Positions 9,033-44,046 of a stretch of DNA of 64,000 nucleotides are shown one piece after another. Each line of letters starts with the position of its first letter. Position 1 is the stretch's first letter. The notes under the pieces are model-generated. The model saw only the letters and a list, made by a program, of their open reading frames with translations, did no database searches and was not told the DNA's origin. Source of the DNA: Cuniculiplasma divulgatum. Its GTDB lineage: Archaea; Thermoplasmatota; Thermoplasmata; Thermoplasmatales; Thermoplasmataceae. The stretch lies in assembly GCA_031200235.1 (NCBI GenBank), contig CP133595.1, positions 1,054,001 through 1,118,000 on the forward strand, read 5' to 3'. A program made the position numbers and the translations under genes.

Positions 9033-9347
9033 ATGGAATATATATATGGAGCACTGCTGCTTCACTCAGCAGGGAAAGAAGTGGATGAGGAAAACCTCAA
9101 GAAGGTACTTACAGAGGCAGGAGTCAAGGCAGATGATGCAAGGCTGAAGTCACTGGTGTCAAGCCTGAAAGAGGTCAAGATCGACGAGGTGCTGAAGAAC
9201 GCAGCCAGTATGGCTGTTGCTGCACCAGCCCACGCTGCAGAAGCACCAAAGAAGGCAGAGTCCAAGAAGGAAGAAAAGAAAGAAGAGAAGAAGGAAGAGG
9301 CATCCGAAGAGGACGCTCTTGCAGGTCTCAGTTCACTTTTCGGATAA
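9033..9347 (+). CDS. rpl12: Ribosomal protein L12 (archaeal P1)
   Basis: The stalk protein that binds P0 as dimers and activates GTPase factors. The protein has 104 residues: an N-terminal helical dimerisation and P0-binding domain ([20 protein letters not shown]), an Ala-rich hinge, a highly charged Lys/Glu repeat, and the factor-binding end [10 protein letters not shown], which matches the P0 tail. A GGAG ribosome-binding site lies upstream. It is the last ribosomal gene of the operon. Confidence 0.95.
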
Positions 9348-9356
9348 GGGCACTGA

Positions 9357-9542
9357 ATGGACTACTACAGCTATTTTTGGGGCATGTTAAAATATTACAT
9401 CCCCGCAATTTTATTAATAATTTCAATATTCATAGAGCCCAGCATATTGCTGCTTATAATCGCCATAGTCTGGATCACCATCTCGATTTTCATGGGAATC
9501 CTCATGGCAGACGATGACCAGAAGAAGAAATCGTATTCCTGA
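9357..9542 (+). CDS. Small membrane protein of unknown function
   Basis: A 61-residue protein starting nine bases after the L12 stop, probably on the same transcript. Two closely spaced hydrophobic helices (about residues 11-28 and 31-50) precede a short charged tail, DDDQKKKS. No catalytic motif is visible. The tight spacing, ATG start and clean hydrophobic pattern support a real gene, perhaps a translocon-associated or membrane-insertion accessory given its neighbours, but that function is a guess. Confidence 0.6.
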   Translation: MDYYSYFWGMLKYYIPAILLIISIFIEPSILLLIIAIVWITISIFMGILMADDDQKKKSYS

Positions 9543-9736
9543 GGCAGTCACACGGAAACCTGCTCCAAAAACGTTTTTTCAGACCGTAATTATCATAAAG
9601 TCCAATGCAGGTGTTTTTACCTGGATTTCCATGTACAGTTATTCAACAGCTCTCATGGGAAAGCCGGATGAAAACGAGCTGCGGTGTCTTCAACTCCGGG
9701 ACCGCAGCAAAGAATATTTAGATCCAGGAGCATAAT

Positions 9737-19083: not shown

Positions 19084-19155
19084 GGGCCGGTAGATCAGCG
19101 GTAGATCGCCTGCTTCGCAAGCAGGAGGCCTCGGGTTCAAATCCCGACCGGTCCA
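19084..19155 (+). tRNA. tRNA-Ala(CGC)
   Basis: A complete 72-nt cloverleaf. The acceptor GGGCCGG pairs with CCGGTCC through the alanine identity pair G3-U70. The D arm is GATC/GATC, the anticodon stem CCTGC/GCAGG has loop TTCGCAA (anticodon CGC), and the T arm is TCGGG/CCCGA with loop TTCAAAT, followed by discriminator A. No CCA is encoded and there is no intron. Its 3' end from the T loop onwards is the attachment site of the integrated element, and the tRNA is left intact by the integration. Confidence 0.96.
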
Positions 19156-19158
19156 TTT
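19137..19158 (+). repeat. attL: left attachment site in the tRNA-Ala 3' end
   Basis: This 22-nt stretch, from the T loop to three bases beyond the discriminator, recurs without mismatch at 44868-44889. The flanks diverge at once on both sides. Integration at a tRNA 3' end that preserves the tRNA is the classic mode for archaeal tyrosine integrases. Confidence 0.92.
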
Positions 19159-19204: not shown

Positions 19205-20494
19205 ATGACCATGCAGCCGAAGTACCAGGAACTGCTTCTTGACGATGATGTGAGAAGGTGGTACGAGAACCTGAGGGCAAAGTCTGTACTGACGGCAACA
19301 GTGGCATTAAGAAATCTTGGCCACTATTGTGAGCTTACCCATACCGATACGAAGGAAATCCTGAGGAAGGCAAAAGCCAACGAGAAGAATTTCAGATATG
19401 AATTCACAGATTTTGTCCGGAAGATGGAAAAAGAAGGCAAGGCAGGATCATACATAGCGAGATTTAAGAAGGTCATACTTTCATGGCTGAAGTTTAACGA
19501 TATCGGTTTGCAGTTAACCGTTAACATATCCGGGGAGAACGAAACACCGACAATCGTTAACGAAAGGGTGCCCGGCAAAGATGAACTGGCAAGAATACTC
19601 AGAAAAGCCACATCAAGAGGGAGAGCTGCCATAGGCATTATGGCTTTTTCTGGGCTGAGACCTGAATCCCTAGGAGATTACGAAGGCACAGACGGATTGA
19701 AACTTGGCGACATCAAAGAATTACGTATATCTGATGAAATACAGTTCGAAAAGACCCCTGCAATGATTGTGGTGAAAAACAAGCTGAGCAAGGCAAGGCA
19801 CCAGTACTTCAGCTTCATCGGTGAGGAAGGAGGTACCTACATCAAAGAATATCTTGAAGAAAGAAGGAAACAGGGCGAAGAGCTGACCTACGAGTCTCCA
19901 TTGTTGCAGTTCGATGTCAGGGGAGTAAGGAAGAACGCATTCCTGAGAACCACCCTTGTTACCAGGGATATAAGGGAAGCAATAGAAAACTCAGGCCTGA
20001 GGATGCGCCCATATGTCATGAGAGCGTATTTCTCAACGGCACTGGACATAGCAGAGGCAAAGGGCCTGATATCCCATCCATGGAGACAGTTCATCATGGG
20101 CCACAAGGGAGACATAGAAGCAAGATACTCAACGAACAAACGGCTACCTCCTGATGTGATCGAGGAGATGAGAGAGGCTTACAGGAAGAGCACGAAATTC
20201 CTTGAGACCAGATACAGCGAGCTTGAGGAGGACAAGGCTCGATTATATTTGCAGCAGCAACTCCTATCAGCAGTTGGCTACAAACAGGAGGAGATTGACA
20301 AAATGGATCTCACCGACATAAGCAGCGACGACTTCCAGAAGCTACTCAGGGACAAGGTGGCAGGAGCCATGGCCAGCAACGGCTCGAAGCAGAGACTTGT
20401 TCCCATGAATGAGATAGAGAAACTGCTAGGCGAAGGATACGAGTTCCAGGCAGTCCTGCCAAACGGAAAGGCTATAATGAAAATGCCGTTTTAG
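19205..20494 (+). CDS. int: Tyrosine recombinase (element integrase)
   Basis: A 429-residue site-specific recombinase that should integrate and excise the element at tRNA-Ala. An N-terminal SAM-like core-binding domain (about residues 20-105) precedes the catalytic domain: Arg152 in FSGLRPESLG, a Lys in VVKNKLSKARHQYF, Arg273 in RPYVMRAYFST, where the usual HxxR His is Tyr, His300 in MGHKGDIEARYS, and nucleophile Tyr308. After the catalytic Tyr about 120 residues follow, including a helical region. The last codons (from about NGKAIMKMPF) are duplicated 2 kb downstream. Orientation and position next to attL are typical. Confidence 0.93.
   Translation: MTMQPKYQELLLDDDVRRWYENLRAKSVLTATVALRNLGHYCELTHTDTKEILRKAKANEKNFRYEFTDFVRKMEKEGKAGSYIARFKKVILSWLKFNDIGLQLTVNISGENETPTIVNERVPGKDELARILRKATSRGRAAIGIMAFSGLRPESLGDYEGTDGLKLGDIKELRISDEIQFEKTPAMIVVKNKLSKARHQYFSFIGEEGGTYIKEYLEERRKQGEELTYESPLLQFDVRGVRKNAFLRTTLVTRDIREAIENSGLRMRPYVMRAYFSTALDIAEAKGLISHPWRQFIMGHKGDIEARYSTNKRLPPDVIEEMREAYRKSTKFLETRYSELEEDKARLYLQQQLLSAVGYKQEEIDKMDLTDISSDDFQKLLRDKVAGAMASNGSKQRLVPMNEIEKLLGEGYEFQAVLPNGKAIMKMPF
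20462..20487 (+). repeat. Integrase 3'-end repeat, copy 1
   Basis: A 26-nt stretch at the very end of the integrase gene, identical to 22453-22478. Similarity continues more weakly to the stop codon in both copies (each ends in a Phe codon and TAG). The two copies bracket the first archaeocin-like cassette. Confidence 0.85.
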
Positions 20495-20597
20495 TTGGGC
20501 TATCTAGGGGTTTCGATAAATGAAGTTAGATAGAGTTATAGGCTCTTGTTCGCATTATGCGTGAAGGTAATAAATATAATTCGATTAGCTAAACTGA

Positions 20598-20654
20598 TAA
20601 AAGCAGAAACCTGCGATCGTTTCTATGCTTTTATGCCGCCCTAGTTAATAGGGC
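20598..20654 (+). promoter_or_regulatory. Two hairpins upstream of the first cassette
   Basis: The first inverted repeat (20598-20610 with 20619-20633) pairs TAAAAGCAGAAAC with GTTTC-TA-TGCTTTTA: 13 base pairs with a two-base bulge and an eight-base loop. The second, GCCCTA-GTTAA-TAGGGC (20638-20654), is perfect and ends five bases before the TATA box of the cassette. The first could end the integrase transcript. The second is well placed as an operator for the cassette. Confidence 0.55.
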
Positions 20655-20658
20655 CAAC

Positions 20659-20669
20659 ATTTTTATAAC
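20659..20669 (+). promoter_or_regulatory. Promoter TATA box of archaeocin-like cassette 1
   Basis: ATTTTTATAAC lies 20-30 nt before the ATG at 20689, which fits a leaderless mRNA. It follows the perfect hairpin GCCCTA/TAGGGC. Confidence 0.55.
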
Positions 20670-20688
20670 ATGATTTTATTCATAAATT

Positions 20689-21330
20689 ATGAGTTGCAGT
20701 AATTGTTTTGATGCAAAAGGCAGGAAGATTACCAAAATAAGCGTGCCACACACAGAGACCTATAAGGTGGGAGCAACAAACGTAACCGAAGGAGTTACGG
20801 TTGTGCAATTTAAAGAGGGCCCTGGTGCACTCCTAAACTGGAAGTACATTATCGAAGGAGAAACTTCATCAAATGCCTCGATTACATACGTAATACAGCA
20901 TAGCGGAAAAACAATAACCAATAAATTCAAGACGAAGTACATTGACACAATCGACGGTAAGAAAATTGTTCATGTTGAGGGAAGCGGACTGAACTCGAAC
21001 GGCAGGGTTACGACTGCTAACCAGGATGTCGCTCTCTCGAACATAAAATCGGACCCAAATGCCATCGAGTGTCTTATCTGCCATGCTCTTGGAACGGTGC
21101 TCTGTACACTTCTCGCAGATGGAGTTTCTGAGGACTTGGCTTGCGAGGAGGCATCGGGTATTGTATGTCTGGAATTCATAGAAGATCCTATTGTTTATGT
21201 CGTCTGTTTTGGAGTCGTGGCATCTATTTGCGACGTTGTCCTTCAAACGGTAATAGATATTGGCGTTCACGTAGCGTGTGAACTTGGTGCAGACTATATA
21301 TGCGAGAAAGCAATCGGTTGTTCTCTATGA
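20689..21330 (+). CDS. Cysteine-rich archaeocin-like precursor 1 (halocin C8-like domain)
   Basis: A 213-residue protein whose last 90 residues resemble halocin C8, a disulfide-rich haloarchaeal antimicrobial. This tail has 10 Cys spaced C2C7C12C7C12C7C15C7C5C, ending CELGADYICEKAIGC. Halocin C8 also has 10 Cys, with a C7C12C7 core and a C7C5C end. Between the Cys are hydrophobic stretches. The N-terminal 125 residues are polar and beta-rich, with one CxxC (SCSNC) and no Sec or Tat signal peptide, so secretion must use another route or cleavage follows. In ProC8 the N-terminal part is the immunity protein, so a similar role is possible. Small membrane genes follow. Confidence 0.75.
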   Translation: MSCSNCFDAKGRKITKISVPHTETYKVGATNVTEGVTVVQFKEGPGALLNWKYIIEGETSSNASITYVIQHSGKTITNKFKTKYIDTIDGKKIVHVEGSGLNSNGRVTTANQDVALSNIKSDPNAIECLICHALGTVLCTLLADGVSEDLACEEASGIVCLEFIEDPIVYVVCFGVVASICDVVLQTVIDIGVHVACELGADYICEKAIGCSL

Positions 21331-21370
21331 GGTATTTAAATAGTCTCACCCATTATAGCATGGTGGTTCT

Positions 21371-21898
21371 ATGAGATACAGACTTGTGTTAATCATTATC
21401 GGGATCACAATAATATCTGTTGATACTGTAGTCTCTCTCAGATATCCAAAAATTCTAATTTACAGTTATTGGGGGTCCTTCCTTGGATTCTTCGTCCCCT
21501 TTGGGATTGGCCTCTCAGCTCTCCTGTATGGCATATTTAAGGCACGTGATTATGGAATAAATCCGATTATTGGAACACTCGGATCAGGGGGCTTTACAAG
21601 AGTGATGAGACAAAATAGGATTCAGGGCACAAGAATGTGGAAATCCGACCACGACATTCTTTCTGATCTGCCAGGGGCGGTGAAATCACCGGATGGTAAG
21701 ACTGTAGAATACACTAACCTGTTCATAAGAAAACCATATGGGACAACGAAATATTCTAGAATGCTTAACGAAGCGGCGAATAAATACCTTAGCGGTGAAT
21801 TAGATGAGGCGGGCTTTTACAACTACGTCGGAAAGCATGGAGCGAAAGAGGAGCAAATGCTAGAATTCATTAAGAAATTCAAAAATGACTATAAATGA
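21371..21898 (+). CDS. Membrane protein of cassette 1, candidate immunity or export factor
   Basis: A 175-residue protein with two N-terminal transmembrane helices (about residues 5-23 and 33-55) and a basic, soluble C-terminal part of about 115 residues. I recognise no family. The first 40 bp after the precursor gene contain a possible weak promoter, but the gene is most likely co-transcribed. Cassette 3 has a four-helix protein at this position and cassette 2 has none, so this member varies. A role in immunity, processing or export of the Cys-rich peptide is inferred from position only. Confidence 0.7.
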   Translation: MRYRLVLIIIGITIISVDTVVSLRYPKILIYSYWGSFLGFFVPFGIGLSALLYGIFKARDYGINPIIGTLGSGGFTRVMRQNRIQGTRMWKSDHDILSDLPGAVKSPDGKTVEYTNLFIRKPYGTTKYSRMLNEAANKYLSGELDEAGFYNYVGKHGAKEEQMLEFIKKFKNDYK

Positions 21899-21907
21899 GG
21901 TGATAAA

Positions 21908-22162
21908 ATGGTTAAATTTCATCCGATAAACAAAGTAATGACCGTGGGTACCTTTCTGTTCTTCGCTTCTCTTATTGTTTTAGTTATAGGGGCAATTTTT
22001 AATTTTAACGGTTCAATATTGGCAGATGCTTTTCTGTACGGAGGATTAGCTTTCCTAATTTCTATAATTCTCCTGACAATAGGTGTACTCACCGGTGCAC
22101 GAAGTGGTAAACTCCGACAGAGGACAGACGAGATATTTGGCAAGAAACAGAAAAGAGAATAA
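21908..22162 (+). CDS. Small two-helix membrane protein of cassette 1
   Basis: An 84-residue protein with two transmembrane helices (about residues 12-32 and 40-62) and a basic tail, SGKLRQRTDEIFGKKQKRE. AGGTGA precedes the ATG. It aligns over its full length with the protein at 40882 in cassette 2: MVKFHP versus MVKYHK at the start, GAI in helix 1, and SGKLRQRTDEIF versus SGSRQERMSELF in the tail. This shared position and sequence mark it as a conserved cassette component, most simply an immunity protein that protects the producer's membrane. Confidence 0.72.
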   Translation: MVKFHPINKVMTVGTFLFFASLIVLVIGAIFNFNGSILADAFLYGGLAFLISIILLTIGVLTGARSGKLRQRTDEIFGKKQKRE

Positions 22163-22199
22163 GGTGTCAAAGTGAGCATTCAAGGAGTTGTAAATCCAA

Positions 22200-22412
22200 T
22201 TGCTGAGTAAATACCCACATCATTTGCTCTTTGTCATTTTAGTCTCTATCGTGACACTTATAGTCAATGTCCTTGCATTCTACACAAGGAATGTCTCTAA
22301 CTATCTCTATCTTTTCGACATAGCTTATGTAATTGGAAACAGTGCCCATTTTGTTGCCTTGTCCATCTCATCAAGTGGCATTAGCGTTGAGGACGAAAAG
22401 AGACCAACATAG
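22200..22412 (+). CDS. Small two-helix membrane protein of cassette 1 (paralogue of 44638)
   Basis: A 70-residue protein with an N-terminal transmembrane helix, LLFVILVSIVTLIVNVLAF, and a second weaker hydrophobic segment ending GNSAHFVALS. It is clearly homologous to the last gene of cassette 3 (44638): both share NVS.YLY.FD..Y..GNSAHFVALS. That alignment supports the TTG start at 22200, with an AAGGAG site further upstream. The family is unknown to me. Repeated occurrence at the end of archaeocin-like cassettes makes it a prime immunity candidate. Confidence 0.72.
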   Translation: MLSKYPHHLLFVILVSIVTLIVNVLAFYTRNVSNYLYLFDIAYVIGNSAHFVALSISSSGISVEDEKRPT

Positions 22413-22452
22413 CCTTGGTTTCTGAAACTCCTGACTAAATTGCAGGATGCCC

Positions 22453-22478
22453 AACGGAAAGGCTATAATGAAAATGCC
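22453..22478 (+). repeat. Integrase 3'-end repeat, copy 2 (remnant)
   Basis: An exact 26-nt copy of the integrase 3' end (20462-20487). It continues to an in-frame TAG at 22483-22485 and encodes the same NGKAIMKMPF tail. No further integrase sequence precedes it. It is either the scar of a recombination that brought in cassette 1 or an attachment-like end created when the cassette integrated at the integrase 3' end. Confidence 0.85.
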
Positions 22479-22489
22479 TTTCTAGAATT

Positions 22490-23119
22490 GTGCTTCTTTC
22501 TACGCCCATAGATTACCGCCTTCCCGAAGATAAGAATGCGGAGATGGTGCTGAGGACCATTCAGGACAGAGAAAGAAGTTTTGAGAGGACTTACACCACA
22601 GACTTATACATGATGTTTTCAGACAAAATGGAGGATGAGATTACTTCCACCAACGAGCTCAAGCACGAGTGGATCGATAAAGCCATTAAAAGGCTCAAAA
22701 AGAGAAACTTCATCGACAGAATTCAGGATGAAAAAGATAGGCGAAGGGTAGAGCTCAGAACCAGGTCCGAGGAAATATACACCCATATGATCAAAAGGGA
22801 CCCCATGCTCTTCTGGAAGCTGATAGAGAAGGGTCACTTTTATTTCATAGTCAGGTTCAGGAATTCCGGTGGCAATGTGATATGCCCGGAATGCGGCCGC
22901 CGCAGGCCTCTTATTGCCGATATAACCGGCAACAGGGCCGCAAGATACGTGGTGAATGACGATCTGCACATAGATGTAACAATCAGGCACCTTGCCATCA
23001 GATTCGACTGCGGATGCGGATATTCCTACTCGGATGAGGTTGATATGTTCGATCCTCTGACCGTGGAGGACTTTTCCAGACTTCATGATGCCGCAGACAA
23101 CCGTCGTAATCCAGTGTAA
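22490..23119 (+). CDS. Winged-helix and zinc-ribbon protein of the element
   Basis: A 209-residue protein. The first 110 residues are helical and charged, with a likely winged helix (DKAIKRLKKRNFIDRIQDEKDRRRVEL resembles a MarR-type wing; only part is quoted here in sense). A zinc site follows, with ICPECGRRRP and a later FDCGCGYSYS, giving four Cys. No family is recognised. It is the first gene of a run leading to the HerA-like ATPase and may regulate the plasmid backbone. GTG 22490 is the apparent start, five bases after the integrase-tail remnant. Confidence 0.65.
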   Translation: MLLSTPIDYRLPEDKNAEMVLRTIQDRERSFERTYTTDLYMMFSDKMEDEITSTNELKHEWIDKAIKRLKKRNFIDRIQDEKDRRRVELRTRSEEIYTHMIKRDPMLFWKLIEKGHFYFIVRFRNSGGNVICPECGRRRPLIADITGNRAARYVVNDDLHIDVTIRHLAIRFDCGCGYSYSDEVDMFDPLTVEDFSRLHDAADNRRNPV

Positions 23120-23152
23120 ATCGACGTATTATCCTGAAAGCCATCGTTAAGC

Positions 23153-23335
23153 ATGGGAGAGCACGCCAGAAAGATTGATATTTCCGGAGTTAAAGTAGCT
23201 TTTGTGCGCAATTTTCCCTCGCATCCATTGTCAAAAATACTGCTTTCTGAGCCGGACAGCGTAACAGGTGAGGAATTGCTTGCGAAAGCCCAGACCTGGC
23301 TAGCTTTCTTCCATGGAGAGAAAGAAAATGAGTAG
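23153..23335 (+). CDS. Small hypothetical protein
   Basis: A 60-residue soluble protein of unknown function (MGEHARKIDISGVKVAFVRN...). It overlaps the next gene by 8 bp and lies in the same run of closely spaced plus-strand genes, which supports it as real. No motif is visible. Confidence 0.5.
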   Translation: MGEHARKIDISGVKVAFVRNFPSHPLSKILLSEPDSVTGEELLAKAQTWLAFFHGEKENE

Positions 23336-23687
23336 AAGGCAGAGAGTAATTTTGGGTGAAAACGAGCCAGAATACGCAGGAACTGTCCAACCGGAGATTG
23401 TGCGTTATGAGATAGCGAATCCCCGAAAGAAGGGCACAATAGAGAGACTCCAGGAGACAATCATTGAGAACACCGTGAATCAATACGAAATCGAAGACCG
23501 GAGGCAGATAGCAGCCATACGGGATTTCATGGAGCGGAATCCCGATATTAGTTATGTAGAATATGAGTCTAACCCCGTGTTGAGCATGGACCTTGTGATT
23601 ACAAGACGTGGTCTCATATTCAAGCGTGAAGAAGCCTCGATATCGGCAACGCTCACCCCTAACAGGAGATTCAGGGCACAGAGGTGA
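23328..23687 (+). CDS. Hypothetical element protein
   Basis: A 119-residue basic protein starting at ATG 23328, which overlaps the upstream stop; an ATG 15 bp earlier is possible. It is rich in Arg and Glu and helical in the first 80 residues, then beta-strand-like (DLVITRRGLIFKREEASISA). It ends three bases before the next gene, so the four genes 23153-25888 are an operon. I recognise no family. A partner of the ATPase encoded downstream is plausible. Confidence 0.55.
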   Translation: MSRRQRVILGENEPEYAGTVQPEIVRYEIANPRKKGTIERLQETIIENTVNQYEIEDRRQIAAIRDFMERNPDISYVEYESNPVLSMDLVITRRGLIFKREEASISATLTPNRRFRAQR

Positions 23688-23690
23688 ATT

Positions 23691-24098
23691 ATGGAAGCCG
23701 AAGATCTGTTCACTGAGGTGTTTCCCGCCATGGCGCTGATCATGATTATTGCGGGTTTCCTTGACCCCACATTCTGGCCAATGCTCCTTCAGTGGCTGGT
23801 ATCGGGAAAGGCATTCCTGATGGTTCTTGCAGCTTCAGCATTCCTGATAGTTATTGTTGGAGGCGTTGTTCTGATCTACTATGCAATCGTTGCTCTCATC
23901 TTCATAGCGATATTTTCTATTTTTGTCCTGGCTCCCCTGTATTTTCTTTATCTGGTTCTGGGGCTCACATACTCTGTGATTCTGGGGGCTGTTGTCGGTG
24001 CCGTTATCCTGCTGTATCTCGTGGAAACCAGGACGGTGAGGATCGAGCAACACACCATAACACTCTCCGTGCACAGGAAGTACATTGTCAAAAGGTAG
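23691..24098 (+). CDS. Membrane protein preceding the HerA-like ATPase
   Basis: A 135-residue protein with about four transmembrane helices (roughly residues 12-30, 40-65, 66-88 and 88-110) and a basic cytoplasmic tail. It is tightly placed between a small gene (3 bp upstream) and the ATPase (5 bp downstream). Small multi-helix proteins next to VirB4/TraG-type ATPases often form the channel of an archaeal DNA-transfer apparatus. That is the most economical role here, but there is no sequence match to prove it. Confidence 0.6.
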   Translation: MEAEDLFTEVFPAMALIMIIAGFLDPTFWPMLLQWLVSGKAFLMVLAASAFLIVIVGGVVLIYYAIVALIFIAIFSIFVLAPLYFLYLVLGLTYSVILGAVVGAVILLYLVETRTVRIEQHTITLSVHRKYIVKR

Positions 24099-24103
24099 AC
24101 AGA

Positions 24104-25888
24104 ATGGATAAATATTTGCGATGCGAAGACAGAAATATGCGGGAAATGGGCTTTTCCGATCTCATCAAGGCACGAAAGGTCCTATCCAGACCAATAATAG
24201 AATTGCCCATAAGGAACGAGGAAAGACTATTCTATCATCCAGAGAAAAGGCTCAAAAGGTTCACAGGTAGAACTGCAATTGCTTACGCAATAATCCCTGA
24301 CGCCGAGAGAGGGAAATTCAGGAGAGAAGAATGCTCTCCAAAGGCGTCTTCCCTCGGGGACTATATCATCCACAAAGGCAACAGGAATGTGTCAATAACG
24401 GGAGTATCAGGACAGGGCAAGAGCTATCTGACCACTCACCTAATATCGATATTCAGCGATAAGGAGATAATCATTTTCTCATTCAAGCCAAACGACCACG
24501 AATTGCACCTTGGTATTCCCGTCATTGATGCAAAGGAGTGCCTGCCCAATCCATTCAGCGATGTGAACGCCTTTTCTGAGGCATACATGACCGCATTCTT
24601 CGGTGAGAGAACCTCTTCAGGGATACAGCTTCAGCAAACTCCAGGATTCCTGCAGGAACTTGCTTCCGAAAGCAACAGCTGGAAGGATTTCATGAAGATG
24701 CTGAACGATAGGAAGAGATCCGCATCCAAGAATCAGGTAGAGGCTCTGAACGCCATTGAACAGAACGTGAAAAGCCTCATTATTGAGGCTATGGGAAGCG
24801 TAGCTCTTGATGATGGAAGTGTTGTTTTCGACTTCTCATCCTTACCGACAAAGCAGGCTCAGAACTTCTATGCCGAGCTTGTGCTGAGGCAGATATACAG
24901 GGAAATGGAAGAGCGCAAGAGGAATGATGTTCTTATCCTGATCGATGAAGCCCATCGCCTGACCAAGTCATATCATACAATCCTTGATGTCATGTCCCGC
25001 GAGATAAGAGACAAGGGAATGCTCTGGATAATCACGCAGAATCTTATCGACATCCTGCCTGAGATGAGGGCAAACTTCGGAACAAAATTCACGTTCAGGC
25101 TGGGAGACGCCGACCTTAACCTTCTATCATACAACCCACTCATGAGATATGCTGTTGAAATACTCCAGCCAAGACAGTTCATAGACATAGAGTTTCCTGA
25201 AGGATCGGCATTCTCGCCTGTTTTCACATACGTATCGAATGGCCTGGAGCACAATGAAACGCAAAAGGTCGCCGCGGTAGTATTAGAGCAAAGGAGGGAA
25301 GTGGGAGTCGGAGGGAGAGGGGAGGCTGTCGACTTCAGGAGGGAGGCCCTGGAAATTCTCGATGAAAAAATGTCCTACGCGACAGAAATGGGAAAGATAA
25401 TTGCCGAGAAGTATGACATCACAAAAGACCAGGCGAAGCTCAAGCTGAAATCCGCACTGGAAGACCTAAAGAACAACAACGAAGTGGGCAGAGTGAAATA
25501 CATCAGAGATGGAAAGCCAATAGTCATGTACTACTCCAAGAACCCGAACCTATCCAATCTTCACACCGGAATGCAAAGCCAGGTTGTGGGAATCCTAAAC
25601 GATCTCGGTGTGACCATCAATAGAATTTCCACAACAGGTGAAAGAAGTGCATTTGACGTTGAGACAGACTTCTTCATGGTTGAGATCGAAACAGGATTGA
25701 AGCACAGCATGGAAGACCTGAAGGATAGGATAAAGAGTACCAATCTGAGGGTGATTATAATTGTACCCAACGAAGACTTAATCGACAAATACCAGAACTT
25801 GGGGGACCAGGTATTAGTTATGACTATAGATTCTTTAAGGGAAATGCTCATGGAACCTATGCACTCAAAGAATACCAAGAGTGTATGA
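24104..25888 (+). CDS. HerA/VirB4-like DNA-translocating ATPase
   Basis: A 594-residue ATPase of the HerA-FtsK superfamily. Walker A is SITGVSGQGKSYLTTHL (Lys106), Walker B is VLILIDEAHRL, and the sensor-like WIITQNL follows. The C-terminal 180 residues hold a winged-helix-like region (AEKYDITKDQAKLKLKSAL) and a domain with FDVETDFFMVEIETGLKHS, where spaced acidic residues and a Lys suggest a PD-(D/E)XK-like fold. Such ATPases drive conjugative DNA transfer or DNA end processing. ATG 24104 is used; the long upstream frame overlaps the membrane gene and is not credible. It ends an operon. Confidence 0.85.
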   Translation: MDKYLRCEDRNMREMGFSDLIKARKVLSRPIIELPIRNEERLFYHPEKRLKRFTGRTAIAYAIIPDAERGKFRREECSPKASSLGDYIIHKGNRNVSITGVSGQGKSYLTTHLISIFSDKEIIIFSFKPNDHELHLGIPVIDAKECLPNPFSDVNAFSEAYMTAFFGERTSSGIQLQQTPGFLQELASESNSWKDFMKMLNDRKRSASKNQVEALNAIEQNVKSLIIEAMGSVALDDGSVVFDFSSLPTKQAQNFYAELVLRQIYREMEERKRNDVLILIDEAHRLTKSYHTILDVMSREIRDKGMLWIITQNLIDILPEMRANFGTKFTFRLGDADLNLLSYNPLMRYAVEILQPRQFIDIEFPEGSAFSPVFTYVSNGLEHNETQKVAAVVLEQRREVGVGGRGEAVDFRREALEILDEKMSYATEMGKIIAEKYDITKDQAKLKLKSALEDLKNNNEVGRVKYIRDGKPIVMYYSKNPNLSNLHTGMQSQVVGILNDLGVTINRISTTGERSAFDVETDFFMVEIETGLKHSMEDLKDRIKSTNLRVIIIVPNEDLIDKYQNLGDQVLVMTIDSLREMLMEPMHSKNTKSV

Positions 25889-28584: not shown

Positions 28585-29190
28585 ATGACACTCGCTTTCG
28601 CCTATGTCAGGGCAAGCACCATAGAAGAGGTCAGGCAGGGCTCAAACGAGAGGCAGAAGGAGGCAATCAGGCAGTATACAGCCCGGAAAGGCTACGAATT
28701 AGAGATATTTGAAGACAAGGCGAAGTCAGGCAGGAATACGCTGAGACCAGAATTCGAGAAGATGCTCAAATCGCTTGACAGGAGGCCCAATATTGTTATT
28801 GTTTCCAAGATCGACAGGTTTGCCCGATCCCTGTCCGATCTGCTGAGAACGCTTGAATATCTTGACCAGAATGGCGCAGGATTCGTCAGCGTCAATGACT
28901 CAGGCATAGATACCACAACACCCAACGGAAGGCTCCTGCTGCAAATTCTGGGCGCATTCGCTGAATTTGAGAGGAACATGATCAATTCAAGAACAAAGGC
29001 AGGCAGGGAACAGGCACAGAGCAGGGGTGTCAAATTCGGAAGACCTGCACTGAAGACCAGAAACGGGAGCTTCATAGACCGAAGAAAGGTAATGGAGTTG
29101 AAGCAAAAGGGATTATCAGCAAGAGCCATAGCGAAGTCCCTTGAATGCTCCATCACTCCGATACTGAGGATTCTGAGGGAAAACCGCTGA
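28585..29190 (+). CDS. Serine recombinase, resolvase/invertase type
   Basis: A 201-residue small serine recombinase. The nucleophile is Ser11 in AYVRAST, followed by the DRFARSLSDLL helix, the dimer-interface LQILGAFAEFERNMI, and a C-terminal helix-turn-helix (KGLSARAIAKSLECSITPILRIL). Such enzymes resolve plasmid multimers or invert DNA. Alongside the tyrosine integrase, it probably maintains the free form of the element. The gene has AT-rich repeats upstream that could be its res site. Confidence 0.92.
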   Translation: MTLAFAYVRASTIEEVRQGSNERQKEAIRQYTARKGYELEIFEDKAKSGRNTLRPEFEKMLKSLDRRPNIVIVSKIDRFARSLSDLLRTLEYLDQNGAGFVSVNDSGIDTTTPNGRLLLQILGAFAEFERNMINSRTKAGREQAQSRGVKFGRPALKTRNGSFIDRRKVMELKQKGLSARAIAKSLECSITPILRILRENR

Positions 29191-29444: not shown

Positions 29445-30530
29445 ATGTCCATGAAAGATCCAATATCGTTTGTGGAGGAGAAGGTGAAGGAGAGAGCCAA
29501 AGAGACAAGCAACATCAAGAGTGCAATAATCTTCGACATGGACTTCAAGCCGCCAAGAATCCTCATAAGAAGCGAACTTAACAAGGTAACAAACGATCTC
29601 GCGGACTACGTGAACCTGAACCTTCCAAGGCACATAATCATCTATGGTTCCAAGGGCTCCGGTAAGACCCTGAGTGCGCTGACAATAGCATCGGCTTTCA
29701 GGGAAAGCAAATCCATACCGTTTTTCTACGTAAACGCAAGAGAAAACCCCACGTCAATAAAGATTTACCGCAAGCTGACGAGAATTGACAGCAGAGGTCA
29801 CGACATAGATGAGGTGAAGAGCAGATTCGATGCCATGCTTTCCGGAAAGTCCATCGTTATCCTTGACGAAGTAGATTTTCTCCAGGACTATGACATATTA
29901 TATCACTTGACCAGACACACCAGGGCCAATCTTATCCTTTTGACGCAGAAGGTATACTGGTACAAGGACATGAACGATGAGAGCGTCAAGAGCTCATTGC
30001 AGCCGGATCACATCGTATTCCATGAATACAGTTCGGAAGAGATCAGGGAAATATTGAAAATGAGAGCCGACGAGGGGCTTAACAAATACGACAAGGAGTC
30101 TCTGGGTTTATTGTCTGCGATGCTTGTGAGGGACTACAGGAGCGACGCAAGGATAGGCATCAAGGCGCTGGAAATCATCGGCAGGCTGAACGAGTGGGAC
30201 GATGAGTCCGTAAGAACTGCCCTGAAGCAGGCCTACGTGGAAGTGGAGGGCGAAACGCTGAAGAACCTCGGAGATCGGGATCTGCTGATACTGGCAGCCC
30301 TGATCAAGAACCAGGATACGAACAGGGCGTATTCCGAAGTTTCAGCGTCAGGCAACATGCTCCTCAGGGGAGTGAGCAAATCAACATTCTTCCAGAGCGT
30401 GAACTACCTGCAGAATCTTGGTCTCATTACTCTGATAAAGAAGAAGATAGGCAGATATTATACAATGGAGTCACAAATATTATTATCCGATGCGTCTATT
30501 GTATCTGGAGAACTAAGAAAGAGGCTATGA
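29445..30530 (+). CDS. Orc1/Cdc6-like AAA+ ATPase
   Basis: A 361-residue AAA+ protein of the archaeal Orc1/Cdc6 type. Walker A is IIYGSKGSGKTLSAL (Lys74), Walker B is SIVILDEVDFLQDYD (Asp141, Glu142), VKSSLQPDHIVFHEYSSEEI matches the family's sensor and lid region, and YRSDARIGIKALEII is sensor 2. A C-terminal winged helix follows (about residues 275-350). It should start element replication. However, its stop overlaps the start of the methylase gene by 4 bp, making it the first gene of the defence operon, so a role in that system is also possible. ATG 29445 is the natural start. Confidence 0.85.
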   Translation: MSMKDPISFVEEKVKERAKETSNIKSAIIFDMDFKPPRILIRSELNKVTNDLADYVNLNLPRHIIIYGSKGSGKTLSALTIASAFRESKSIPFFYVNARENPTSIKIYRKLTRIDSRGHDIDEVKSRFDAMLSGKSIVILDEVDFLQDYDILYHLTRHTRANLILLTQKVYWYKDMNDESVKSSLQPDHIVFHEYSSEEIREILKMRADEGLNKYDKESLGLLSAMLVRDYRSDARIGIKALEIIGRLNEWDDESVRTALKQAYVEVEGETLKNLGDRDLLILAALIKNQDTNRAYSEVSASGNMLLRGVSKSTFFQSVNYLQNLGLITLIKKKIGRYYTMESQILLSDASIVSGELRKRL

Positions 30531-33500
30531 GCATGCTAAATGAGGTTATTTTGCGCGAACACGTTTACCAACAAGTGATCAAAACCAGGTCTGCAAAAGA
30601 CCTTTTTGACCTCTTCAAGATATTAGGCTATCCAGAAAGTGTTATTCTAGACCCATCCTCAAAAAGGAAAAAATCGGACTTAGATTTTAGAAAGGAGGAT
30701 GAGGAAAGGATCAAGGAGATATATTCAATTTTGAGTTTTGACAAGAACTTACCTGTTTTCCTGCTGGAAACAACAACATTGCACCCATCTTTTGTGAGGT
30801 CGGTAGCAAGCACCTTCGATAAACAGTATTTGCAGTTTTTATTAATTTTCACAACAGATTACTCCGAAATCTCTTTTGTTTTCCCAGATAAAGAGAAGAT
30901 AGAAGCGGGGAAACACAAACTGAAGCTGACGAAACTGACTCTTGATAAAGAGGATATAAAGAGCAAAAGGGATTATTACAGTGTTATCCAGACACTTGCA
31001 AACATGGAATATGAAGATAAAGCAAGTTGGAGAGAGGTGTGGAGAAAGTGGAAAAAGGCCTTTAGCGTTGAAAGAGTGACAAAGGAATTCTTTGAACGTT
31101 ACAAAGAGATTTTTTTCAAATTAAGAGATGAATTGCATAAGCAGAGAATTCCCAGCAAGGAATCCCATGAATTTACCCTTCAATTTCTGAACAGGATAAT
31201 GTTTATTTATTTCATCTCAAAGAAGAATTGGCTGGAAAAGCCGAAATTTGTTGATTGGCTATGGTCTTCTTACAAAGAACTTGGGAAATTTAACTCGAAC
31301 GAATTCTACGAAGAATGGCTCAAGCAAGTATTTCTAAAGGCGTTTAACAATCGCGCAAACGAGATTAAAGGTCTGCCGGATGAGGTTGTAAAAGTAATCT
31401 CAAATGTACCTTACCTGAATGGAGGCTTATTCAGAGAAAACGATCTAGACAACCTAAAAGTTCAGATTAGTGACAGGATGTTCCAAAAAATCCTCGAATT
31501 CTTTGAATCCTATAATTTTACAATCAAGGAAGATATGCCTCTTGAGTCAGAGGTTGCAGTAGACCCGCAGATGATCGGTTACGTTTACGAGTCCTTAGCC
31601 AATGTTGCAGAAGAGATATATGACAGGAATGACCTTGGAATCTTCTATACTCCTAGAGTTGAAGTAGATTTCATGTGTAGAAGAAGTCTGGTTGAATACC
31701 TATCAAAGAACTTGTCTGAAATCCCAAAGGAGAAATTTTACCATTTAATCTTTGACCCACTTGAGGAAAAAGATAAGATTGAGAATTGGTTCGAAAAAGA
31801 GAATTTATGGAGGAAATTAGAGGATGCCCTGAACAACTTATCCGTGGTTGATCCTGCTTGCGGATCAGGGGCATTCCTCGTAGGAATGCTGAATGTTGTT
31901 TCTGAGATTTATAGGATGGTTTATAAACGCATAGGGAGCAGTCTAACAGACTTTGCCCTGAAGAACAGAGTCATACAATACTCTCTCTATGGTGTAGATG
32001 TGATGCCATGGGCAATACACGCAGCTGAACTAAGGTTGTGGCTTCAACTCATCGTGGAGACAGAGTTCAAGAAAGAGGAATTAAGACAACATCCTCTTTT
32101 GCCTAACCTGAATCTCAATTTGAGAGTCGGAGATTCCCTTGTTCAGGAAATTGGTGGAATAAGCTTCAATTTAAGAACTAATAACTTGAAGAATCACCTG
32201 AAGAGGAAGTTGGAAGACTTAAAACAAGAAAAAAGGAAGTACTTTGAAAACTCACCAACTGCCAAATTTAAGTCGCCTGAAGAGGTTAAAGAAGAGGAGA
32301 TTCGACTATTTGAGGAAATAATAGATGAAAGAGTTGAAAGCCTTACAACTGATATACAAGTCTTTGAGCATAACATAAAGATGGCAAGGTCTCAAAAAAC
32401 TCTTGCCGGAGAGCAAGTAATAGATGAGAAAAAAGTAAATGAGAACCAACTAAGGATTGACTCAAATAAGGAGGAAATTGAGAAGCTAAGAAATGTCAAA
32501 AGCCATCTGAATGATCCTGAGAAGAAACCTTTCGTCTGGGACATTGATTTTGCTGAAATTTTTGGTGATAAAGGAGGCTTTGATATTGTCATTGGTAATC
32601 CGCCATACGTTAGACACGAAGTTATTTCTCCACCTAACAGACTTAAATCCGATGTTGGAGAGGACGACCGGAAAGAGTATAAGGAAAAATTGGTCCAGTC
32701 AGTCAGAGCCAGATTTCCCGTAGTCAATAGTTTAGATCTTAAAAATGACTACTATATTTATTTCTATTTTCATGGTTTGAGCCTTTTAAATGAGAAAGGA
32801 ACCTTTTCCTTCATAACTTCTAATTCTTGGCTTGATGTTGGATACGGTTGGAAGTTACAAGAGTTTCTCTGTAAGTATGTCCCAATACTTTCTATTTATG
32901 ATAATCCCAAAAGAAGTTTTGCGCATGCTGATGTTAACACGATAATTGCATTATTCGGAGCTGCCGAAGTGAAACAAAGAAGTCTAAGCGATTGGACGCC
33001 AGGAGCGAGCGCTGGTAACGAAAAAGTTTGGCCACAACTTAGAAGCGTAGCAAAGTTTGTGATGTTTAAGAAATCATTTGAAGAAGTTCTATCACCTTCT
33101 AACCTAATTGAATTAGATAACATAAAGGCAACAAAGAGAGGAGAAGAAATAACCCAGTTAGTAGGAAATGTAGTAGAAACCAACGACTACCGATGTTTCC
33201 CAATAGTCCAGGATGATTTACTTGAGGACGGGTGGGAATATCCTGAAAACTATAACAACAAAAGATTCAGGGAAGGTAATTATGGCGGCAATAACTGGGG
33301 TGGTAAATACCTAAGAGCACCGAATATTCTTTACTCTGTACTACAAAAGGGAAATTTTAGAGACTTGGAAACCATGGGCAAAATAGGAACGTATCTTAAT
33401 ACTGGCGGAGTCGACAAATTTTACTTTGTGAAGGTGAAGCAAAGAAACAAGGCTACCTCTCTTATCTTAAATACGGAGTTTAACGAAGAGTTTGAAGTGG

Positions 33501-34213
33501 AAAATAAATTCCTTCAACCAATCATTAAGTCTTCCCAAGAATTGTCAAGGATTTTAATAGAAGATAAAGATGTAAAATCCTATATAATTTCTATTCCCGA
33601 TGATGAAAACATTTCAGGGATGAAGGTCAATGACTATATACAATTCGGAGTCAGAAAGAAATACAACAAAAGGTCTGGCCCCTCAAAAAGAAAACCGTGG
33701 TGGAGACTCCCAGATCAAGCGAGATTTTGCACAGAAATACTATTTCCAAGAAATTACAACGATAAACTTGAAGTCTTTTACAATCCAACTAGGTTTATTG
33801 CGAATCGATTTTATAGGCTTGAGACAAACAAGCACTCCTCACTTATCATTTATTTGAACTCTACTTTGAACTTTCTAATGCTTGAATTATTTGGAAGGAG
33901 AAATCTTGGTCTCGGTGCCTTAGACATAGAAAAACCGGAGTTGAGAAAACTTCCGATACTGGACAAAGATATAAAATTCAAAGACCACAATTTCTTTAGA
34001 AGAGAAGTTAAAACAATCTACGAAGAGCTTGGATTTAACAAATCGATACCAATACGTGAGCAAGAACCTAACCCCCTTCCTGATCGGGCAGAACTTGACA
34101 ACATCATTTTCGATGAGTTGGGATTAACACAGCAAGAGAGAAAAGAGGTGTATTGGTCAATTTGTGAGCTGGTAAAGCAGAGAATCGATAAATCGAAGAG
34201 TTTGAGGGAATAA
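30527..34213 (+). CDS. Eco57I-type adenine-specific DNA methylase, PglX or type IIG-like
   Basis: A 1228-residue N6-adenine methyltransferase. SAM motif I is SVVDPACGSGAFLVGM (about residue 442) and catalytic motif IV is VIGNPPYVRHEV (Asn691). Between them lies a roughly 110-residue Lys/Glu-rich coiled coil. The C-terminal third (LIIYLNSTLNFLMLELFGRR, LGLGALDIEKPELRKLPI) is the TaqI/Eco57I-like target-recognition region. The N-terminal 180 residues form a separate domain, but I see no certain nuclease motif, so it may methylate only, as PglX does in BREX. The gene is noticeably AT-richer than the host genes. It is coupled to the Orc1/Cdc6 gene. Confidence 0.9.
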   Translation: MSMLNEVILREHVYQQVIKTRSAKDLFDLFKILGYPESVILDPSSKRKKSDLDFRKEDEERIKEIYSILSFDKNLPVFLLETTTLHPSFVRSVASTFDKQYLQFLLIFTTDYSEISFVFPDKEKIEAGKHKLKLTKLTLDKEDIKSKRDYYSVIQTLANMEYEDKASWREVWRKWKKAFSVERVTKEFFERYKEIFFKLRDELHKQRIPSKESHEFTLQFLNRIMFIYFISKKNWLEKPKFVDWLWSSYKELGKFNSNEFYEEWLKQVFLKAFNNRANEIKGLPDEVVKVISNVPYLNGGLFRENDLDNLKVQISDRMFQKILEFFESYNFTIKEDMPLESEVAVDPQMIGYVYESLANVAEEIYDRNDLGIFYTPRVEVDFMCRRSLVEYLSKNLSEIPKEKFYHLIFDPLEEKDKIENWFEKENLWRKLEDALNNLSVVDPACGSGAFLVGMLNVVSEIYRMVYKRIGSSLTDFALKNRVIQYSLYGVDVMPWAIHAAELRLWLQLIVETEFKKEELRQHPLLPNLNLNLRVGDSLVQEIGGISFNLRTNNLKNHLKRKLEDLKQEKRKYFENSPTAKFKSPEEVKEEEIRLFEEIIDERVESLTTDIQVFEHNIKMARSQKTLAGEQVIDEKKVNENQLRIDSNKEEIEKLRNVKSHLNDPEKKPFVWDIDFAEIFGDKGGFDIVIGNPPYVRHEVISPPNRLKSDVGEDDRKEYKEKLVQSVRARFPVVNSLDLKNDYYIYFYFHGLSLLNEKGTFSFITSNSWLDVGYGWKLQEFLCKYVPILSIYDNPKRSFAHADVNTIIALFGAAEVKQRSLSDWTPGASAGNEKVWPQLRSVAKFVMFKKSFEEVLSPSNLIELDNIKATKRGEEITQLVGNVVETNDYRCFPIVQDDLLEDGWEYPENYNNKRFREGNYGGNNWGGKYLRAPNILYSVLQKGNFRDLETMGKIGTYLNTGGVDKFYFVKVKQRNKATSLILNTEFNEEFEVENKFLQPIIKSSQELSRILIEDKDVKSYIISIPDDENISGMKVNDYIQFGVRKKYNKRSGPSKRKPWWRLPDQARFCTEILFPRNYNDKLEVFYNPTRFIANRFYRLETNKHSSLIIYLNSTLNFLMLELFGRRNLGLGALDIEKPELRKLPILDKDIKFKDHNFFRREVKTIYEELGFNKSIPIREQEPNPLPDRAELDNIIFDELGLTQQERKEVYWSICELVKQRIDKSKSLRE

Positions 34214-34214
34214 A

Positions 34215-35363
34215 ATGCCAAAATCAATGCCTATTGAAGTAAACCCTGAAGTCCTGAAGTGGCTCAGAGAAAGTTCTGGCTGGAAGATAGATGAAGTTAG
34301 CAAGAGATTGGGAAGCACTTCTGAGGCTATATTAGACTTTGAGACGGGGGAAAAATCACCAACATTAACACAATTAAGGAGACTGTCTGAACTATACAAG
34401 AGACCTTCGGCTTCATTCTTCCTGTCTAAACCAAAGGAAGAAAAACCTCTGCCCAAAGATTACAGGTTCCTGCCAAACCGAGCAAACGTATTTGACAAAA
34501 AGACCATCCTTGCGATAAGAAGGTCCAGAAGCCTACAGAGTATAGGCAAAGAGCTATCCCTGAACATAAGATATGAAACAGTAACAAAGACCAAAAAGGC
34601 TGCTTTAACCGATAATCCAGAGCTCATTGCAGCTGAATATAGGAAGTTGTTCGCTCTTGACTTTGAAAAACAAAGAAAACTCAAAGATGCATACAAGTTG
34701 TTTGGTTACCTGAGAGATGCCCTTGAAGATTCAAACGTTCTGGTTTTCCAGTTCTCCATGCCTATCGAAGATGCAAGGGGCTTTGCATTGGCAGACGAGT
34801 TCCCATCCATTGTTGTAATTAATTCAAAAGACAGTATAGAGGCAAGATTGTTTACCCTAATGCATGAATTCGGGCACATTCTTCTTGGCGAAACAGTAAT
34901 AGATATTCCTGACGAATCTCAGGCAAATAGGGATAGCATAGAAAGGTGGTGTAATGCATTTTCGGCCTCGTTCTTGCTGCCAAAGGAATCGATCAGCGAA
35001 TTATTCAAAGAATATCGTGGTAGACTGACGGAAACAGAAACTCTAAACTCTTTGTCCAGAAAATATAAGGTCAGCAAGGCCGTGCTTCTGGTCAAGATGC
35101 TGGAACTGGATTATATTTCAAGACAGGAATTCGAGAATGTTCTGGCGAGGTATGTGCCAAAGGAAACCAAGAAGATTGAAGTTAAAAAGAAAGGTATAAG
35201 CCTGACATCAGATCAGAGATGCCTCTCGGAGATGGGCAACAAGTTCGTATCTTTAGTAGCTAACAATTTCGACAAGGATTTCATAACATACAGTGATGCC
35301 CTGAATTATTTGTCAATCAAATCAAAGAACTTCGACAGGGTTCTGGCGAAAGCGAGAAAATGA
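34215..35363 (+). CDS. XRE-family HTH and ImmA/IrrE metallopeptidase protein (antitoxin or regulator)
   Basis: A 382-residue protein. The N-terminal XRE helix-turn-helix (residues 10-60, WLRESSGWKIDEVSKRLG and FETGEKSPTLTQLRRLSE) is followed by an ImmA/IrrE (COG2856) peptidase domain with LMHEFGHILLGE, that is HEFGH with His217, Glu218 and His221. A further helical segment ends the protein. Such fusions act as regulators cleaved or cleaving under stress and as antitoxins of PIN-like toxins. It starts two bases after the methylase and overlaps the DUF4411 gene by 4 bp. Confidence 0.9.
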   Translation: MPKSMPIEVNPEVLKWLRESSGWKIDEVSKRLGSTSEAILDFETGEKSPTLTQLRRLSELYKRPSASFFLSKPKEEKPLPKDYRFLPNRANVFDKKTILAIRRSRSLQSIGKELSLNIRYETVTKTKKAALTDNPELIAAEYRKLFALDFEKQRKLKDAYKLFGYLRDALEDSNVLVFQFSMPIEDARGFALADEFPSIVVINSKDSIEARLFTLMHEFGHILLGETVIDIPDESQANRDSIERWCNAFSASFLLPKESISELFKEYRGRLTETETLNSLSRKYKVSKAVLLVKMLELDYISRQEFENVLARYVPKETKKIEVKKKGISLTSDQRCLSEMGNKFVSLVANNFDKDFITYSDALNYLSIKSKNFDRVLAKARK

Positions 35364-35851
35364 CCTCAAATAACTATATCATGGATTCGTCTTCGCTGAT
35401 TGAACTGAACAGGCACAATCCAATTGATGTATTTCCCAGTGTGTGGAAGAATATGGAGTCATTGATCAGTAAAGGCCTCTTGATAGCCCCTACTGAGGTA
35501 CTTTACGAAATAACGGAAAGAGATGATCAGCTGGCAAAATGGGCCAAAGAACAAACCAGCTTTTTTCGTACACCCACACAGAAACAGATAGAAATTCTGA
35601 AGGGCATATTAAAAGCATATCCGTCAATGGTAAGGGAAGACAGGAAATATGATGCGGATCCATGGGTTATTGCTTTAGCCATAGAGATGACAACAGATTC
35701 CCAGCAAACACTGACTCCGATAAAGAGGATAGTAGTTACGGAAGAAAAACTGAGAGGGGAAAAAATCAGAATCCCTTACGTCTGCCAGAAATACAACATA
35801 GATTCAATCGACATTATAGAAATGTTCAGAATAGAAGGATGGAAATTCTAG
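35360..35851 (+). CDS. DUF4411 PIN-like nuclease (probable toxin)
   Basis: A 163-residue PIN-fold protein. It begins YIMDSSSLIELNR, with the first catalytic Asp near residue 9. A conserved Glu follows in LIAPTEVLYEI, and KYDADPWVIALA holds the later acidic residues, the DUF4411 pattern. DUF4411 proteins regularly follow XRE-COG2856 genes and have been predicted as toxins of a type II toxin-antitoxin pair, with RNA cleavage as the likely activity. Here the pair is embedded between the methylase and helicase of a defence operon, where it may act as a suicide module. Confidence 0.85.
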   Translation: MTSNNYIMDSSSLIELNRHNPIDVFPSVWKNMESLISKGLLIAPTEVLYEITERDDQLAKWAKEQTSFFRTPTQKQIEILKGILKAYPSMVREDRKYDADPWVIALAIEMTTDSQQTLTPIKRIVVTEEKLRGEKIRIPYVCQKYNIDSIDIIEMFRIEGWKF

Positions 35852-35860
35852 GGGGATAAT

Positions 35861-40150: not shown

Positions 40151-40852
40151 ATGGACATAAAGGTATGTCACAAAGGACTAACCACTCACAAAATAGGAAT
40201 ATATATACATGATGATTTTATTATTAGTCTTATGACAAAGAAAATTAAGAGTGTAAAGGTGCTTCATTTTGATGAAAGCACGGAAAAGGAAGCGAGAATC
40301 CAGCAAGCCTCTATCCTTATAGAGATTGAGGGAGAGAAACCAAAACTAATTCAAGGAATGCAACTATTGAAAGGAGATGTAAACGGTAATCACACTATCA
40401 ACTATACTATATTCGATGGGAAAAATATTGGGAAAGCAACGTACTCCATAAACACAAAGGAAAAGAATAAAAATGATTCAAAGCTAAAAATTGTAGGCAT
40501 TAGTGAGGGAAAAGCTTGTTGCGGGAATAGTAAACCGATAGACATAACATTAGTGGTATCAAATAAAACATACTCAAGCAATGATCCATCTATTCAATGC
40601 GACATTTGTCAGGCATTAGTTAAGGAAATATGCGAGGAATTGGCAGACGGCATACCTTCGGATGAGATATGTGCGGACGTGTGCGTTGCGGGAGCAGGAG
40701 ATATTTGCTTATTATTTGTTGAAACCTTAATCGGTTACCTTATCTGTCTATCAATTTGCGCCTCTCTCTGCGCACTGGCAATAGAGGAAATAACAGATTA
40801 CGGTTGTAGCGTGGGAGCTGAGTACATATGCCAAAAGATAGGTGTATGCTAG
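40151..40852 (+). CDS. Cysteine-rich archaeocin-like precursor 2 (halocin C8-like domain)
   Basis: A 233-residue protein whose C-terminal 85 residues hold 12 Cys spaced C2C7C12C3C7C12C3C3C11C7C5C, ending CSVGAEYICQKIGVC. This is the pattern of precursor 1 plus one extra Cys pair, and it includes the C3C7C12 step of halocin C8. The N-terminal 145 residues are beta-rich and polar, with a CC pair (KACCGNS), and there is no signal peptide. Sequence identity with precursor 1 is clearest in the tail (ICEELADGIPSDEIC versus LCTLLADGVSEDLAC). A weak TATA-like TCGTTTAATTT lies about 20 nt upstream. It is followed by two small membrane-protein genes. Confidence 0.78.
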   Translation: MDIKVCHKGLTTHKIGIYIHDDFIISLMTKKIKSVKVLHFDESTEKEARIQQASILIEIEGEKPKLIQGMQLLKGDVNGNHTINYTIFDGKNIGKATYSINTKEKNKNDSKLKIVGISEGKACCGNSKPIDITLVVSNKTYSSNDPSIQCDICQALVKEICEELADGIPSDEICADVCVAGAGDICLLFVETLIGYLICLSICASLCALAIEEITDYGCSVGAEYICQKIGVC

Positions 40853-43036: not shown

Positions 43037-43049
43037 ATCAAATCCCGAC
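43037..43049 (+). repeat. Partial attachment-site copy before cassette 3
   Basis: ATCAAATCCCGAC matches attR at 44867-44879 over 13 bases, including the A before the shared core, where attL has T. Together with attR it brackets cassette 3, as if that cassette had once integrated next to the element by the same site. Confidence 0.55.
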
Positions 43050-44021: not shown

Positions 44022-44046
44022 TAAGATTGAGAAAAGGGAAGTAAAT

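Follow-up and report, generated by a model that had tools for sequence, protein, structure and literature searches.

Bacteriocin cassettes behind the stop codon of an archaeal integrase gene: a probable recurrent insertion site in a tRNA-Ala-integrated element of Thermoplasmatales

How a copy of the end of an integrase gene comes to lie about 2 kb downstream of that gene, directly behind a group of small genes, is the question raised by this locus. The original prediction offered two readings of it: the integrase 3′ end may itself have served as an attachment site, with the geometry that elements show at tRNA 3′ ends, or recombination between related plasmids may have left a scar. In what follows, the window means the whole 64,000-nucleotide stretch of DNA analysed, R the 3′ end of its integrase gene, and R′ the downstream copy of that end.

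The element, its integrase and its tRNA attachment site

The integrase belongs to an element delimited by the following features.

19084–19155, plus strand: tRNA-Ala (CGC), the chromosomal target of the element (ARAGORN).
19137–19158, plus strand: attL, the tRNA 3′ end, TCAAATCCCGACCGGTCCATTT (exact 22-nt match to attR, none in 100 shuffles).
19205–20494, plus strand: tyrosine integrase of 429 aa (weak XerA/XerD/XerC NCBIfam matches, motifs, relatives).
44868–44889, plus strand: attR, repeat of the tRNA-Ala 3′ end that closes the element on the right (22-nt exact match).

Because the 22-nt stretch around the tRNA 3′ end has an exact second copy at 44868–44889, we assigned the element a span of approximately 19137–44889 and the tRNA 3′ end as its normal attachment site. 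As in other tRNA-integrated elements, attL and attR duplicate the tRNA 3′ end, and an intact, open integrase gene lies beside attL, starting 50 nt downstream of the tRNA-Ala gene. The same layout was present at the loci inspected in family relatives, where the integrase is preceded by tRNA-Ala sequence or by a duplicate of the 3′ portion of that gene. Direct reading of the protein identified the motifs SGLRPESLG, RPYVMRAYF and MGHKGDIEARYS, and full-length relatives with the same neighbour genes exist. The best of the weak XerA/XerD/XerC matches reached 28 bits against a cut-off of 220. NCBIfam yielded no match to a dedicated integron-integrase family, and no meaningful relative was recovered by sequence among solved structures. 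In viral contigs, we found neither a relative of the integrase nor an exact match to R.

A repeated integrase end bounds cassette 1

Downstream of the integrase, we localized the following features.

20457–20494, plus strand: R, upstream copy, the final 38 nt of the integrase gene including the stop codon (repeat search, shuffles).
20495–22447, plus strand: body of cassette 1, 1.95 kb (missing from empty-site relatives; in silico removal restores the empty arrangement).
20689–21330, plus strand: hal1, halocin-C8-like precursor of 213 aa (TIGR04449, E 0.0012, 19.8 bits, under the 24-bit cut-off).
21371–21898, plus strand: m175, small membrane protein (conserved in the cassette 1 of relatives).
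21908–22162, plus strand: m84, small membrane protein (comparison of relatives).
22200–22412, plus strand: m70, small membrane protein, final gene of cassettes 1 and 3 (53% identical copy at 44635–44832 in cassette 3).
22448–22485, plus strand: R′, downstream copy of the integrase 3′ end (repeat search, shuffles, relatives).
22490–23119, plus strand: winged-helix-like gene, found directly 3′ of the integrase stop in empty-site relatives (L036, L047, L060, L073, L052 and L048).

The original prediction described a 26-nt exact repeat of the integrase C-terminal coding end, located about 2 kb downstream, after the cassette. Our repeat search of the window recovered this core, AACGGAAAGGCTATAATGAAAATGCC, at 20462–20487 and 22453–22478, and extended it to a 38-nt direct repeat with 35 of 38 identical positions (92%) and a spacing of 1991 nt. 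With up to 3 mismatches, the 38-nt repeat occurred just twice in the window and never in 100 dinucleotide shuffles, and the core was present in the whole 2.0-Mb genome solely at the R and R′ sites (reversed-pattern control, 0). The three differences between the copies (CCA/CCC, CCG/CCT and TTT/TTC) are all synonymous in the frame LPNGKAIMKMPF-stop, which argues that R′ is the end of an integrase gene of a slightly different allele. Judged from the sequence, R′ is thus a piece of another integrase allele's end and no fresh duplicate of the window's integrase.

A target-site duplication produced by a transposon-like insertion would also leave an insert flanked by direct repeats. Nevertheless, 38 nt is long for such a duplication, the copies differ by the three synonymous changes although they would stem from a single duplication, no transposase was recognised in family searches of the cassette 1 proteins, and the same site has been used repeatedly; this origin is therefore most improbable.

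The assigned functions of the cassette proteins are based on weak domain matches. Hal1 is 28.8% identical to Hal2, a protein of the same element that exceeds the TIGR04449 cut-off, and among the 77 family genomes full-length hal1 was found in R arrays only. Family searches with m175 gave no match, and its putative function is immunity or export. The m70 gene of the window has a TTG start, and its status as a gene depends on conservation. At the 3′ end of the integrase gene, synonymous sites are no more than moderately conserved, at 0.52 of expected (about the 16th lowest of 368 windows), which counts against this end serving as an insertion site.

Empty and filled sites in relatives

We surveyed 77 family genomes, one per species, many of them fragmented metagenome bins. 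Most of the approximately 30 close integrase relatives had no cassette and showed another gene within a few nucleotides of the integrase stop, so that relatives with a single integrase end, which the original prediction had proposed to look for, exist in numbers. At the six empty-site loci listed above, this gene is a relative of the 22490–23119 gene of the window. With cassette 1 removed in silico, the window aligned with L060 at 73% over 2.9 kb, continuously across the junction. Likewise, L058 (I-plasma) without its cassette aligned with L055 and L042 at 90–91% over 2.5 kb and with L038 at 97.8% over the first 138 nt past the stop, L045 aligned with L034 at 76%, and L040 with L082 at 74%; the empty L055 and the filled L058 come from the same assembly. 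In silico removal restored the empty arrangement at these four filled loci tested. Since filled loci without the cassette align straight through the junction with empty loci, the cassette was inserted at the integrase 3′ end. Additionally, the genes downstream vary among filled loci, and relatives of them also lie directly behind the integrase stop in empty loci; therefore, the filled loci do not represent one old insertion inherited with one backbone.

Similar cassettes in other genomes, some of them in stacked arrays, likewise end in the repeat, a check that the original prediction had suggested. Orphan copies of R with at most 3 mismatches numbered nine in the 77 family genomes (G000, G001, G008, G019, four in G048, and G062), all directly behind a bacteriocin-like cassette. 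The same position is occupied in L058 and L081 by an orphan repeat that is diverged throughout. In a class sample of 400 genomes, G266, from another family of the same order, was the sole carrier of R outside the family. In the window, L080, L137, L059 and both L136 copies, the orphan repeat has its left edge at an identical TGCC, 35–38 nt from the m70 stop; L045 has TGTC there, and the L040 copy is 15 nt longer. The homologous unit is thus 38 nt, and 53 nt in L040.

These edges bear on the proposal that a tandem second element decayed and that R′ is the last remnant of its integrase gene. One locus, L081 of G062, does have a 103-aa C-terminal fragment of another integrase downstream; however, this fragment is of a different lineage (65% identical), has its own end and follows a separate truncated R′. 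Elsewhere, just 38–53 nt are left, their left edge nearly constant across several genomes and cassettes, and what lies to the right is the usual neighbour of an empty integrase, all of which makes tandem decay very unlikely. A full second integrase downstream, the arrangement that the original prediction associated with such decay, was not found in the relatives, L081 alone having an integrase fragment, and a different one, at that place.

Number of events and stacking

To count events, changes of the filled state, gains or losses alike, were placed on a tree of 31 integrases from which the last 45 nt were excluded. Both gains and losses would be expected if insertion is reversible. Counting strongly supported branches only, we found at least five changes, with empty and filled integrases interleaved, and a single filled clade was rejected (p-AU 0.00078). 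G008 aside, the integrase of the window shares up to 83% DNA identity with empty ones, compared with 79–80% with the filled G062, L040 and L045.

Cassettes also occur in tandem. L040 has the order R-C1-R-C1-R, in which cassette 1 is present twice, in identical form, with three copies of the repeat. L059 has the order integrase-R-C3-R-C1, and L136, from the same genome as L040, C3-R-C1-R. Segments ending in att stack likewise at the tRNA att site in relatives. The repeat, the empty sites, the several state changes, the stacking and the differing cassettes at one site are the direct basis for recurrent insertion. We therefore propose that the integrase 3′ end is probably a recurrent, "attI-like" site at which small mobile bacteriocin cassettes insert into a plasmid-like, tRNA-Ala-integrated element of Thermoplasmatales. 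Neither an excised circle nor an in-strain pair of empty and filled sites was seen in the assembled genomes, one per species.

Proposed mechanism and the recombination junction with G008

In the mechanism that we propose, the last part of each cassette is a copy of the integrase 3′ end carried by the cassette itself. A circular cassette would recombine through this R′ with the R of a resident element and so enter right behind the stop codon; the integrase would stay intact, and the inserted cassette would have R on its left and R′ on its right. Recombination of R with R′ would remove the cassette precisely, and repeated insertion would generate R-cassette-R-cassette-R arrays. The circular intermediate is postulated, as is catalysis by a tyrosine recombinase, which would most likely be the element's own integrase. 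A site-specific enzyme is favoured over host homologous recombination because R is short (38–53 nt) and constant in position; in Thermococcus kodakarensis, homologous recombination has been reported only for 500 bp or more (PMC5495485). Against a fixed site, the left edge of R′ is not constant, as seen in the 53-nt copy of L040.

Action of the integrase on R is without sequence support because R is not significantly similar to the tRNA att core, nor are R-type and att-type cassette tails to each other. Most R/att pairs did not score above shuffles, and the 2 of 24 near 0.04–0.06 are unconvincing after multiple tests. Of the arguments against the integrase hypothesis, this lack of resemblance, which extends to the R-type tails and the tRNA att site, weighs most heavily. 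An arm sequence common to R-type and att-type cassette tails was rejected, with 836 of 2000 column shuffles equally good.

Exchange between related elements has also left a trace at this locus. Between the integrase start and 22408, the window and G008 (L080) show 5.4% differences; the next 2052 nt (22409–24459) show none, and the divergence beyond is 12%. The switch to identity falls within 39 nt of R′. The 22409–24459 segment reads as a very recent exchange beginning at R′, and homologous exchange between related elements very probably also occurs. The identical 2052-nt block joins two genera, with 5% and 12% divergence at its borders.

This junction supports a different account, in which the integrase-cassette block travels between related elements by ordinary homologous recombination, or by an integrase-assisted form of low specificity, R′ having been captured once by chance and then used as a short homology arm. 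The common register of the R-type cassette tails, which may point to a single origin of R′, is consistent with it, as is the pTN3 integrase, which recombines homologous sequences down to approximately 100 bp (PMC5495485). However, archaeal homologous recombination and the pTN3 integrase are both reported to use sequences far longer than 38 nt, R separates two distinct cassettes (C1 and C3) as well as tandem copies, and cassette-bearing integrases belong to several lineages nested among empty ones. We consider this account, the main rival to site-specific insertion, unlikely as the explanation of the repeat. With respect to the two initial readings, then, the attachment-site geometry is strongly supported, the action of a site-specific recombinase on it is what we infer, and exchange between related elements is visible as well, at the G008 junction; the two are not exclusive.

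Cassettes 2 and 3 and the tRNA att series

Two further cassettes, encoding proteins related to those of cassette 1, are located at the real att site of the element, at its right end.

40151–40852, plus strand: hal2, halocin-C8-like protein of cassette 2, tRNA-att type (TIGR04449, 52.4 bits against a cut-off of 24).
43038–43049, plus strand: partial att-like sequence TCAAATCCCGAC, left of cassette 3 (direct reading; similar at the same place in L045 and L137).
43140–44832, plus strand: cassette 3, with hal3, m131 and an m70-like gene (comparison of relatives).

Hal3 gave no TIGR04449 match. In cassettes of the type of 2 and 3, the terminal sequence is AGTATTCSCTTAAAACWTTAA, with the tRNA 3′ end after it. 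End sequences of the AGTATTCSCTTAAAACWTTAA type were present in 54 of the 77 family genomes (reversed control, 0), often as several copies on the same strand, 0.7–5 kb apart, and the segments between them encode, by eye, PIN-domain-like, AbrB-like, Fic-like, AAA ATPase and bacteriocin-like proteins. Cassette 3 was found in both the R and the tRNA-att series; this, together with the second docking site, makes it plausible that the element's recombinase handles the cassettes.

Based on these two series, we tentatively suggest that archaea across the Thermoplasmatales family may possess a non-integron cassette-capture system, in which a single tyrosine integrase would use the 3′ ends of both the host tRNA-Ala and its own gene as docking sites and would build integron-like arrays of bacteriocin and toxin-antitoxin cassettes; this broader proposal is possible but doubtful.

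Short segments that each terminate in AGTATTCSCTTAAAACWTTAAKCAAATCCCGACCGGTCCA (the tRNA-Ala 3′ end) form tandem arrays family-wide, in G008 (L139, L151, L156), G035 (L157), G054 (L158), G032 (L138) and others. With their PIN/AbrB-like toxin-antitoxin, Fic and AAA ATPase cargo, these arrays resemble, by analogy, a superintegron on a tRNA att site. L138 (G032:C59, positions 1–1823) shows R, then cassette 3 and a tRNA att at the right; it looks like a minimal element, reduced to the integrase and one bacteriocin cassette, although its contig begins at R.

Relation to known systems

As in integrons (IntI/attI/attC; archaeal integrons, PMC9668308), recombinase-free cassettes with small accessory genes, each ending in a recombination site, form arrays beside an integrase gene; a fixed insertion site next to that gene and arrays with one site per cassette were found in L040, L059, L136 and the empty relatives. 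In contrast to integrons, the integrase matches no integron-integrase model, R lies in the integrase coding sequence, the cassettes are multigene units of 2 kb, and no conserved attC-like hairpin is present, the copies of R folding weakly into differing structures (z −0.6 to −2.1). A classical integron is thus rejected by integrase family and site structure.

Cis-mobilizable elements and accreted tandem islands likewise consist of segments that lack a recombinase, have copies of a gene 3′ end at their borders and are stacked beside an integrase-encoding element, and here too att direct repeats bound a segment without its own recombinase, adjacent to an integrase-bearing element. However, the target here is the integrase gene itself and not a host tRNA or housekeeping gene, and a second, tRNA-type array is present on the same element. 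Helper-embedded satellites (HE-PICI) are also smaller elements integrated inside a larger mobile one, but they have their own integrase and interrupt helper late genes (PMC10111431), whereas our cassettes are without an integrase and do not disrupt the integrase gene behind which they lie. The Thermococcus pTN3 integrase is another archaeal tyrosine integrase acting outside its att site; it is non-specific and works on homologous stretches of at least about 100 bp (PMC5495485), whereas the site here is 38 nt and constant. Regarding cargo, Hal2 passes the curated cut-off for Halocin C8-like archaeocins (TIGR04449), and Hal1 is a weaker relative (19.8 of 24 bits), below it like Hal3; the present proteins differ in residing in Thermoplasmatales, on mobile cassettes. 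In the literature searched, with subscription papers outside its scope, we found no earlier description of such cassette insertion at an integrase 3′ end and no paper naming both halocin C8 and Thermoplasma.

If R is a true docking site, a mobile element bears a landing pad for cargo within its own recombinase gene, whose stop codon is rebuilt with each insertion. This would represent a non-integron route to cassette arrays and would explain sets of bacteriocin and immunity genes circulating among acidophilic archaea. The sites are short and defined, so the docking-site reading lends itself to direct testing.

Additional features of the element and its relatives

In L081 (G062), positions 9307–9640 contain a truncated cassette 1 repeat joined to the 103-aa C-terminal part of a different integrase. 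Within the integrase gene of the window, the strongest synonymous-site conservation, 0.12–0.2 of expected, was located at 19487–19528 (codons ~95–108). This stretch, CTGAAGTTTAACGATATC..TTGCAGTTAACCGTTAACATA, has a repeated GTTAAC and may be a candidate binding site, inside the gene, for a recombinase or regulator. A small serine resolvase at 28585–29190 (Pfam Resolvase, E 9.7e-45) is a second recombinase on the element and could in principle act on the cassettes. Finally, a large block at 30527–39043 encodes, by eye, DNA methylase/restriction-like proteins, an HTH protein with a peptidase-like domain, a PIN-like protein and a helicase-nuclease, and is a probable defence island within the element.
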